From positions 1-64,000 of the forward strand of contig CAIUVX010000064.1 in assembly GCA_903902705.1 (NCBI GenBank): DNA of 64,000 nucleotides, read 5' to 3'. The notes beneath the pieces are model-generated. The model made no database searches and was not told the origin of the DNA. It was given only the letters and a program-made list of their open reading frames with translations. The stretch is from an uncultured Methylococcales bacterium. Lineage in GTDB: Bacteria; Pseudomonadota; Gammaproteobacteria; Methylococcales; Methylomonadaceae. Made by a program: the position numbers and the translations under genes. Positions 43,473 through 47,469 of the stretch are shown here, one piece after another (within the stretch, counting starts at the first letter, position 1; the number at the start of each line of letters is the position of its first letter).

Positions 43473-43551
43473 CCAAGAAAAAGCCGAACCTATTGAAAGA
43501 TAGGAAACGGAAAGTCGTGGATCCTGAGAATGGAAAGCCAGACTGCCTTGA
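43473..43551 (+). ncRNA. Candidate GEMM-I-like (cyclic di-GMP-I) riboswitch
   Basis: CAAG...GCCGAACCUAU-UGAAAG-AUAGGAAACGGAAAGUCGUGGAUCCUGAG...AGCCAGACUGCCUUG: GAAA-capped stem, ACGxAAAG linker, GGAUCCUGAG and AGCCxGxxUGCC 3' segment, flanking CAAG/CUUG pairing. Confidence 0.62.
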
Positions 43552-43638
43552 AAAAACCCGACAAAAAGGTGGATTAGGGCGGTTTGGTTTTTTTTTGCCT
43601 TTTTCTAATTTTATTAATTTGTTAACTGGAATACTCTG

Positions 43639-46600
43639 ATGAACAAAAGTTTTTATATCCAATCAAGTTTTAAAAAATCCATGAGTTATTCTCAGTGTTT
43701 AGCATTAGAAAGCCGTATGGTATTTGATGGGGCAGGGGTTGCAACCGCAGTAGACGCACAACAGACTATTAGCGATCAACCCAGTGCTAATCCAGTCAGT
43801 GTGGCTGGTGTTCAGCCTAGTGATCCTGTTGCTAGTTTTTTGCCAGAAAATATTCCGCAAGCCATTGATTATTCGCCTAATGTAGATGCTGCAAATAACC
43901 AAGATCAGTTTTTTATCGCCCCTGATGTATCAAATTCAGTCGATACCTCTGTTGTCACGGGAGCAAACACAGGGCAGGCAACCGCCATTTTTATCGTTGA
44001 TCCGCGTACTGAAGAAGCTGCGTTATTATCATTAAACCCGCCCGTCAATGCTCAAGTTATTATTCTTGATCCTACGCGTGACGGTTTTTTGCAAGTCACC
44101 GAACAGTTACAAAATCGCCATGATGTGACAGAACTGCACATCATACCGTGGACTAAAGACAACCAGCAGTGGTTAGGTAGTCAATCAGTATCGGCAACAC
44201 TAGATCCCGCAGTCAGCAATAATTTAATAGCGTGGGATAACGCGCTTGTCGATAATGCCAAGCTGGTATTTCATGGACAAACTAGCATGGACGCAAGTTG
44301 GCTTGATCATGTCGGGGCAATAACCACTACTCAAACAAGCTGGTTGCTCGATAGCAAAACCGATAGCCTATCCTCTGAACAAGCTAAAACGGTTATTTTT
44401 ATTGATAGCGCGGTACAAAATGTAGCCGACATTATTAGTTCGATTGATTCGAGTACAGAAGTTGTTTATCTTGATGCGACAAAAGACGGTTTGACTCAAA
44501 TTGCTGATTATTTGGATGGACGCACGGGTATAGACAGTGTGCAAATTATTAGCCATGCCAATCAAGGGACACTGCAACTAGGCAACGAAATTTTAACGAA
44601 TGCTAATTTAGCCGATCACGCCGCTCAACTTGCTACCATTGGACACTCACTAACGATGAATGGCGATATTTTGCTTTATGGTTGCGACTTGGCAAAATCT
44701 ACTGAGGGTTCACAGTTTGTCGATAGTTTTTCTTATCTTACCAAAGCGGATGTAGCTGCCTCAACTGACATCACTGGCGCGGCTAGTAAAGGGGGTAACT
44801 GGACGCTGGAATATACAACGGGGACTATTGAAGCGAGCATTTTAGCGGCAAATCATTATCAAGATATACTTGCGTTGCCGACTTTTGATGTTGCAGGGGC
44901 AACTTTAGTGTTTGGTACTCCAGTCCTGAAAAGTGGCACTGGACTAAATGCAGGGAGTATTATTGTATTTGATCATGTCATCACCTTTGGCACTCAAGGG
45001 ATAGATGCCGTTGTAACAATTGTGAGTACTGACACTGGCGTAGCAATTTCTGCTCTCGATAGCTTACCTATACCACCTACACCTGGACCAGGATTGAGCA
45101 TTCCTCTTGACCCTAATTGGTTTGCGTTAGACACTCAGTCTACTCTTGCTGGTGCAGCAGCTAATGCAGCAGTAACTATCAAATTTGATTTTATCCTAAG
45201 TGGTACTTATAACGCTGCAATAGGAGATGGAACAGACGTATTATTGCAAAATGTCACAGTTAATTCCTACGATATCGATAATACACAATTTCAGGACTTT
45301 AGTGGCTTTTCTAGTTATTCATTAGCAGGAGGACTGGTAACACCAACTAACTTAACGGTATCGACAGGCAATGGTTTTACACATTTTGTTAATACCTTGG
45401 CTACAGATAATACTGGACTTAACCCAGCTACCTTTGACGTACCTCTACTTAATCAAGCCCGTGTCACAGCTACCTATGACGCAATTAACACTTTTCAAAT
45501 AAAAGTAGGATCAGGTAACGATAGTACTGCCCGTTTCTATTTGGATTTTGGTCAGGGTTATACTTTGACTAATCCGACTGACACTGTCATTGTCCATCCT
45601 CCAACTGCAGTTAATGATACTGGGATCGGTAGCACTGGCAATCCCGTTAGTGTCAATGTAACAGCCAATGATAGCGATCCAGACATTAATTCACCTTTAG
45701 ATCCAGCAAGCGTAAAAATCGTTGGTGCAGACCCAACGGGTAAGCTAACTACTAATGAAGGCACTTGGACAGTGGTTGCAGGGGCAATTATCTTTACCCC
45801 AGCTAGCGGCTTTACGGGTAATCCCACGCCGATTAGCTACACAGTCAAAGATACAGGCGGATTGGAATCAAACCCTGCCACAGTAACGATAACTTACCCA
45901 CCGATTGTCAGACCAGACACAGCGACAGGTATCACGGGTAATCCTGTCACACTCTCTGTACTAGGCAATGATGGCGATACGGGTGTTATATTGAATCCAG
46001 CCAGTGTGAAAATTGTGGGTACGACTACCGCAGGTGCGCCGCTAGATGTTCCAAATGAAGGCACTTGGACGGTAAATACCACCACAGGGGCAATTACCTT
46101 TACGCCTCTTTCTACCTTTACGGGTAATCCCACACCGATTCAATACACGGCTAAAGATACAGGTGGATTGGAATCAAACGTTACCACAGTAACGATAACT
46201 TACCCACCGATTGTCAGACCAGACACAGCGACAGGTATTACGGGTAATCCTGTCACACTCTCTGTACTAGGCAATGATGGCGATACGGGTGTTATATTAA
46301 ATCCAGCCAGTGTGAAAATTGTGGGTACGACTACCGCAGGTGCGCCGCTAGATGTTCCAAATGAAGGCACTTGGACGGTAAATACCACCACAGGGGCAAT
46401 TACCTTTACGCCTCTTTCTACCTTTACAGGTAATCCCACACCGATTCAATACACGGCTAAAGATACAGGTGGATTAGAATCCGTCGTTCCTGCCAGAGTA
46501 ACAGTGATAATGAATTCTCTGCCCCTTGCAAATCCCGACAGGAATACCGCTTCTGTGGGTGGTGCTACTGTGACAGGTGATCTGATTACTAATGACCAAC

Positions 46601-47469
46601 CAGGAGCTATACCAACCTTCGTAACATCTGCCAGCCAAGGTACAAACCCTATCATCATAGGTTCTGCATTCACGACAACAGCAGGCGGTATTTTACTACT
46701 TAAAGCGGATGGCAGTTACAATTATACGCCACCAAACAGCGTTGCATCCAGCGGCTTAACGGAACTTTTTAACTATACTATCACCGATTCTAATGGCAGC
46801 ACCAGTAGCTCGATACTGACTATAATTGTCGCACCCACTACTACTGGTGGTGGTTCATTAATACAATTAAGCAATCCGTCAGCATTTGTTTCAAGTGATC
46901 GGTCGATTTTCTTTGTCGCTAAACCACTTGAAGCAGTAAAGGTCTCAAACTTGGGATTATATATACCCTCAGCCAATGATATTATTTCGTTGACGGGTTC
47001 TTTGCGTGATCAAGTGGTATTAGAGCTTAAACGTTTTTCTTTTGATATTCCAAGCTGGTCATTTCGGCACACTAATCCGAATGCACAATTGGAATTTGAA
47101 GCAACTCGTCCCGACGGTTCAGCTTTACCTGAGTGGTTACAATTTAATCCCAAGCTGTTACGCTTTTCTGGTGTACCGCCTAAAGGTGCTCATCACGAAG
47201 AAGTGATGGTAACGGCAAGAGATGTTTACGGGAATGAGGTTCATGCGATATTTTATGTTCACGTTAACAAAGAAAGCGTCCGTCCTGAGCATAAATCATT
47301 GGCTGTTGATTTAAAGCTGATGGGCTTATCGAGTAAAGTGCTGGAAAAAAATACCCATAAAGAAAAAGTTATTGGTAAGCCTGCACTATCGGAACGAATG
47401 AACAAGATAGGTAAAATGGGCAAACTACAAGAAAGTCGTGCATTACTCGATAGTTTGAACGCTAGGTAA
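43639..47469 (+). CDS. Large surface protein/adhesin: LEPR-like N-terminus, DUF4347, CshA-type fibril-like repeats, cadherin/He_PIG-like domain
   Basis: LALESRMVFDGAG; VIFIDSAVQNVADI ... VQIISHANQGTLQLGNEILT ... DILLYGCDLAKSTEGSQFVDSFSYLTKADVAASTD; repeats GNPVTLSVLGNDGD ... NPASVKIVG ... GTWTVN ... ITFTP ... FTGNPTPIQYTAKDTGGLES. Confidence 0.9.
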   Translation: MNKSFYIQSSFKKSMSYSQCLALESRMVFDGAGVATAVDAQQTISDQPSANPVSVAGVQPSDPVASFLPENIPQAIDYSPNVDAANNQDQFFIAPDVSNSVDTSVVTGANTGQATAIFIVDPRTEEAALLSLNPPVNAQVIILDPTRDGFLQVTEQLQNRHDVTELHIIPWTKDNQQWLGSQSVSATLDPAVSNNLIAWDNALVDNAKLVFHGQTSMDASWLDHVGAITTTQTSWLLDSKTDSLSSEQAKTVIFIDSAVQNVADIISSIDSSTEVVYLDATKDGLTQIADYLDGRTGIDSVQIISHANQGTLQLGNEILTNANLADHAAQLATIGHSLTMNGDILLYGCDLAKSTEGSQFVDSFSYLTKADVAASTDITGAASKGGNWTLEYTTGTIEASILAANHYQDILALPTFDVAGATLVFGTPVLKSGTGLNAGSIIVFDHVITFGTQGIDAVVTIVSTDTGVAISALDSLPIPPTPGPGLSIPLDPNWFALDTQSTLAGAAANAAVTIKFDFILSGTYNAAIGDGTDVLLQNVTVNSYDIDNTQFQDFSGFSSYSLAGGLVTPTNLTVSTGNGFTHFVNTLATDNTGLNPATFDVPLLNQARVTATYDAINTFQIKVGSGNDSTARFYLDFGQGYTLTNPTDTVIVHPPTAVNDTGIGSTGNPVSVNVTANDSDPDINSPLDPASVKIVGADPTGKLTTNEGTWTVVAGAIIFTPASGFTGNPTPISYTVKDTGGLESNPATVTITYPPIVRPDTATGITGNPVTLSVLGNDGDTGVILNPASVKIVGTTTAGAPLDVPNEGTWTVNTTTGAITFTPLSTFTGNPTPIQYTAKDTGGLESNVTTVTITYPPIVRPDTATGITGNPVTLSVLGNDGDTGVILNPASVKIVGTTTAGAPLDVPNEGTWTVNTTTGAITFTPLSTFTGNPTPIQYTAKDTGGLESVVPARVTVIMNSLPLANPDRNTASVGGATVTGDLITNDQPGAIPTFVTSASQGTNPIIIGSAFTTTAGGILLLKADGSYNYTPPNSVASSGLTELFNYTITDSNGSTSSSILTIIVAPTTTGGGSLIQLSNPSAFVSSDRSIFFVAKPLEAVKVSNLGLYIPSANDIISLTGSLRDQVVLELKRFSFDIPSWSFRHTNPNAQLEFEATRPDGSALPEWLQFNPKLLRFSGVPPKGAHHEEVMVTARDVYGNEVHAIFYVHVNKESVRPEHKSLAVDLKLMGLSSKVLEKNTHKEKVIGKPALSERMNKIGKMGKLQESRALLDSLNAR
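45880..46490 (+). repeat. Two nearly identical 306-bp (102-aa) coding repeats inside the adhesin gene
   Basis: Only a few nucleotide differences between copies beginning at about 45894 and 46200. Confidence 0.92.

Follow-up and report, generated by a model that had tools for sequence, protein, structure and literature searches.

A predicted c-di-GMP-I riboswitch sharing a strand with its terminator in the leader of a Methylococcales surface-protein gene

The leader of a gene encoding a DUF4347/CshA-repeat surface protein in an uncultured methane-oxidising bacterium of the Methylococcales carries a real, standard GEMM-I element. It lies in a stretch of 64,000 nucleotides, the whole of which was analysed and is called here the window. 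Because the folds of the aptamer and of a terminator exclude each other, this c-di-GMP-I riboswitch is predicted, with a probability of about 0.9, to switch on transcription of the downstream gene at high levels of the second messenger c-di-GMP. This reading is directly supported by the match to the aptamer model, by the conservation of the two mutually exclusive folds and by the conserved association with the gene. Nothing tested separates this riboswitch from the known GEMM-I class, in which it counts as a well-made, ordinary member, and its regulatory logic is standard.

Scanning the whole 64 kb with cmscan against the 4227 families of Rfam 15 gave a single match above threshold, to RF01051 (c-di-GMP-I/GEMM-I), at positions 43473-43550 of the + strand. 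It covers the full model (1-87) and reaches 44.6 bits for a gathering score of 35, with a whole-window E of 1.8e-5. A GEMM-I riboswitch had been proposed in this leader from the letters alone, with a cmsearch against RF01051 as the way to check it, and the Rfam scan bears the proposal out. The segments on which this sequence-only reading relied are all present and in the right order, namely the GAAA-capped stem, ACGGAAAG, GTGGATCCTGAG, AGCCAGACTGCC and the flanking CAAG/CTTG pairing (Table 1). The extent that it gave to the element (43473-43638) holds for the aptamer part, but this ends at 43550, and positions 43551-43638 correspond to the platform and the remainder of the leader.

Table 1. 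Coordinates of the leader features, of the gene and of GEMM-I clusters in related genomes (window positions unless a genome and contig are given)
Feature	Position	Strand	Basis
c-di-GMP-I (GEMM-I) riboswitch aptamer	43473-43550	+	RF01051 score; covarying pairs in orthologs
P1 5' strand (CAAG), partner 43547-43550 (CUUG)	43474-43477	+	fold of the 78-nt transcript
G20 equivalent (Vc2), ligand-selectivity base; a G, shared with c-di-GMP switches	43483	+	model alignment
CC of P1b, paired with GG 43509-43510; flipped pair gives ACGGAAAG	43484-43485	+	model alignment; alignment of copies
Stem with GAAA tetraloop cap (43495-43498)	43489-43504	+	model alignment; folding; two varying pairs
ACGGAAAG segment	43507-43514	+	sequence
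A47 equivalent (Vc2), stacks between the two ligand bases	43511	+	model alignment; alignment of copies
P3 arm, tetraloop-receptor region and shortened distal loop	43513-43544	+	model alignment; folding; ortholog alignment
GTGGATCCTGAG segment	43518-43529	+	sequence
Terminator 5' arm (aptamer 3' strand)	43532-43551	+	MFE folds
AGCCAGACTGCC segment	43536-43547	+	sequence
C92 equivalent (Vc2), Watson-Crick partner of the ligand	43546	+	invariant, 59/59 copies
Small inner hairpin (ACC/GGU) inside the terminator loop	43556-43570	+	folding; ortholog alignment
Terminator 3' arm, complement of 43532-43551	43574-43593	+	duplex -24.8 kcal/mol; shuffles; orthologs
U9 tract of the intrinsic terminator	43588-43596	+	sequence; nine T in five orthologous leaders
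1276-aa DUF4347/Big_9/CshA-repeat surface protein, adhesin-like; predicted regulated gene	43639-47469	+	Pfam
GEMM-I cluster	G032:C100 18268-21158	-	
GEMM-I cluster	G045:C145 110752-115707	-	
GEMM-I cluster	G008:C65 13150-20281	-	
GEMM-I cluster	G021:C27 65532-72863	-	

The known members of the class include Vc2 of Vibrio cholerae and Cd1 of Clostridioides difficile. Like these, the element of the window combines a full-length aptamer, a GNRA-capped stem and canonical contact bases, and is found in a 5' leader, ahead of a gene with a surface or lifestyle role. Unlike them, it has a C-G pair in place of G-C in P1b, a change that is compensated and common among its relatives, and a short distal P3 loop. 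Its own genome contains five RF01051 elements, among which the window's copy scores lowest.

At least one GEMM-I match (E <= 0.001) is found in 56 of 121 related genomes, and in seven of the eight genomes of the genus. Full-length orthologs of the downstream protein, with 54-81% identity, are encoded by four other genomes (G002, G003, G004 and G006), and in all four loci the riboswitch element lies directly upstream on the same strand; aptamer, terminator and DUF4347/CshA-repeat gene are kept together in all five genus genomes that possess a full-length ortholog. Since the aptamer is retained in the orthologous leaders of four other genomes, with covarying pairs, it is more than a chance match. 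The five orthologous leaders, whose covariation backs the RF01051 secondary structure, keep 98.2% of the aptamer pair cells intact and include three doubly changed (covarying) pairs, above slid controls. The end pair of P1, for its part, is C-G in two of these genomes and U-A in three. As the window's own leader and that of G006 are almost identical, these figures amount to about four effective independent comparisons.

The ligand contacts of solved GEMM-I aptamers, G20, A47 and C92 in Vc2 numbering, presumably map to G43483, A43511 and C43546, which are the bases expected of an RF01051 member. Among homologous copies, the G20 position is a G in 57 of 59. An A is found at the A47 position in 59 of 59, a circular count as the site was found by its AAA, and the evidence there is the alignment. 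The genome contains 37 GGDEF matches, 30 of which were fetched and 28 of which could be read by a motif pattern. The position taken to determine cGAMP selectivity is an aspartate in 27 of these domains and an asparagine in a single, degenerate one; none of the 28 carries the serine that we take to be typical of the Hypr enzymes making cGAMP. Because the three reading positions are canonical and no readable GGDEF domain has this serine, c-di-GMP is predicted to be the expected ligand of the aptamer.

The aptamer could instead be of the GEMM-Ib kind, reading 3',3'-cGAMP or being promiscuous. Such variants are hidden inside the GEMM-I collection (PMC7266159), and one of them, the pilM riboswitch of Geobacter metallireducens, has the same aptamer-strand terminator architecture (PMC9262584). 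However, cGAMP-reading GEMM-Ib switches have a changed base at the selectivity position (PMC9481103; PMC9262584), whereas base 43483 is the G of c-di-GMP switches and not an A. The GGDEF survey points the same way, and the riboswitch precedes a surface-protein gene, a context other than exoelectrogenesis. A cGAMP-reading aptamer is thus very unlikely and was rejected on the selectivity base and the survey.

A change of ligand had also been suggested on the ground that the second base of the usual ACGCAAAG is altered. The altered base is in fact the fourth. In the model alignment, the change from ACGCAAAG to ACGGAAAG sits on the 3' side (ACGG) of a two-pair helix, the 5' partner of the altered base is changed as well (GGC to GCC), and the pair is C-G instead of G-C. 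Of 59 GEMM-I copies from the own and related genomes, 40 have C-G and 19 have G-C as the outer P1b pair, which is never broken; the inner pair is C-G, U-A, U-G or A-U, with no mismatch in any of the 59. As the altered base is paired and compensated, in a pair intact in every copy, and as the ligand contacts are canonical, a different ligand by way of ACGGAAAG was discarded; the change reflects compensatory evolution of the stem and touches no ligand contact. The C-G swap and the short P3 of the genus's aptamers do bring the raw score closer to that of the GGC variant family. It is nevertheless highly improbable that these two traits define a subclass whose affinity is changed or which prefers a cyclic dinucleotide other than c-di-GMP.

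Membership of that variant family itself, c-di-GMP-I-GGC (RF03167), whose ligand may differ, would at first sight agree with the scores. RF03167 belongs to the same clan and has the same scaffold. The window's aptamer reaches a raw score of 48.2 bits with it, more than with RF01051 (44.6 bits), and the RF03167 cut-off is exceeded by L032, a further GEMM-I leader of the genus. But 48.2 bits is below the gathering score of 59, and the G that distinguishes the RF03167 consensus (GACGCGAAG, at the A47 position) is an A in the window's aptamer (A43511) as well as in L032. The "GGC" of the family name is taken here, on our own interpretation, to spell out the bases found at positions 20, 47 and 92. 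With a score under the cut-off and an A at the A47 position, this assignment is hardly credible and was not retained.

The sequence-only reading had further suggested an expression platform with a T tract. This is supported by a predicted terminator built on the aptamer strand, with unusual complementarity compared with shuffles and with pairs kept in orthologs. In the lowest-energy fold of the leader, the aptamer 3' strand (43532-43551) is paired with 43574-43593, and C43546 with G43579. When the downstream 60 nt were dinucleotide-shuffled 5000 times, a single shuffle gave a complement as strong as the real one. Among 4264 60-mers of the window, 2 reach the score of the real duplex; they are presumably the platform and the antisense of the arm. 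The A-rich 5' side of the stem is a possible pairing partner for the first part of the U9 tract. In the five orthologous leaders, 92.2% of the terminator pair cells are kept and the nine-T tract is always present; the outer-stem pairs vary one-sidedly and stay paired, no compensatory double change being seen in this stem, whose 5' arm is in any case under constraint from the aptamer. A simple terminator scan found nothing in the window's leader because its loop limit of 8 leaves this hairpin out. The bglG-cis-reg match to the hairpin (23 bits for a cut-off of 80) was put down to chance, the feature being a long hairpin that ends in a T tail. The window's own leader shows no clear sigma-70 promoter; TTGATA-N17-TATATT occurs just 5' of the aptamer in two orthologs, such hits being near the shuffle expectation.

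When the growing transcript is folded, the aptamer is the MFE structure from 43550 to about 43568 and the terminator is better thereafter, being ahead of the aptamer-locked fold by 15-16 kcal/mol at 43588-43596. As the terminator overtakes the aptamer in this way, the ligand would have to act within a few tens of nucleotides. A short co-transcriptional decision period has also been described for pilM, in which aptamer and terminator are mutually exclusive and the terminator captures the ligand-pairing C75 (PMC9262584). The leader studied here shares with pilM the ON architecture, the inclusion of the aptamer 3' strand in the terminator and the sequestration of the ligand-pairing C. It differs from pilM, which senses cGAMP, by the G at its selectivity base, for which c-di-GMP is predicted.

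According to the mechanism proposed, the aptamer would fold first during transcription of the leader, and bound c-di-GMP would hold P1 and P3 and allow the polymerase to read through. Without c-di-GMP, the 3' arm would capture the aptamer 3' strand, including C43546, and the resulting intrinsic terminator with its U9 tract would end transcription about 40 nt 5' of the start codon. Both ligand binding and the direction of switching are inferred, the latter from the modelled architecture, which makes ON the most likely direction. A comparable case is Bc2 of Bacillus thuringiensis, through which c-di-GMP turns on a collagen adhesion protein (PMC4933901). The window's element is likewise predicted to turn its gene on with c-di-GMP, by means of an intrinsic terminator 5' of a surface adhesion-type gene; unlike this prediction, Bc2 was shown experimentally, in a Firmicute and for an unrelated protein.

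The low score of the window's copy within its genome could also mean that the aptamer is a decayed relic, the hairpin being a constitutive terminator or an attenuator that does not respond to a ligand. Against this, the aptamer persists in orthologs with 54-55% protein identity, complete with covarying pairs and every ligand-contact position. Furthermore, the first substantial gene met 5' of the leader on the + strand stops near 39.7 kb, which leaves no obvious other transcript for the hairpin to terminate. A relic is thus extremely unlikely, and the ON switch remains the preferred reading.

The 1276-aa surface protein announced downstream is indeed encoded there, with Pfam matches to DUF4347 (5.9e-64), CshA repeats (1.1e-34) and bacterial Ig-like domains (Big_9, 4e-25). 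This make-up looks typical of large secreted surface proteins. The description as a "giant adhesin" stands for the surface protein; "giant" is generous for 1276 aa and "adhesin" is a deduction from the domains, which suggest an adhesive function. The closest named ortholog comes from the Methylococcales isolate LacPavin, whose name points to Lake Pavin. If the prediction holds, c-di-GMP would be directly linked to a cell-surface protein in methane-oxidising bacteria. Its value lies in a testable prediction on attachment in this group and in a clean example of an aptamer-strand terminator. In the part of the literature covered, no paper on c-di-GMP riboswitches in methanotrophs was found beyond one incidental co-mention.

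Other GEMM-I leaders of the genus show different arrangements. In the leader L002 of the same genome (aptamer at 1501-1586 of the leader, C7:34813-34898, + strand), the G20 position is occupied by an A (AAGACTAAACC), as in cGAMP-reading variants, and this aptamer may respond to cGAMP or be promiscuous. At this position L032, probably its counterpart within the genus, has a G, and L013 an A. Comparison of 24 non-orthologous genus leaders (L001, L003, L004, L036-L054, plus L002 and L032) reveals a conserved hairpin immediately 3' of the aptamer, roughly GTGAC-TTCGTTAAT-GTCAC, this pattern being present in 22 of the 24. In most of them the outer terminator stem (AAAGTC/GGCTTT) is weak or decayed, and a long T tract is absent. 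The loop of the TTCGTTAAT hairpin is strongly conserved, which suggests that the expression platform is of another kind; in the leaders scanned, this hairpin has no Rfam match above threshold. L002, L032, L034, L038 and L049 combine an inner hairpin with a strong aptamer-strand terminator followed by a T tract (duplex of -19 to -26 kcal/mol), an architecture identical to that of the window's element but with another inner hairpin.

Three to four GEMM-I elements are clustered on one strand, about 0.7-5 kb apart, in several genomes of the family (Table 1), as if a switch-plus-gene unit had been duplicated in tandem. In two genomes, two divergent elements about 1 kb apart (G002:C120 24765-25860 and G003:C86 778-1873) each lead an apparent surface-protein gene, one of which is the ortholog of the window's gene (G002) or a fragment like it (G003). 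GEMM-I elements also lie 5' of more distant surface proteins (L046, G007:C29 8160-8239, and L039, G004:C248 927-1006, both on the - strand). These proteins share the N-terminal LESRLVFDGA motif with that of the window, and their leaders carry the other platform.
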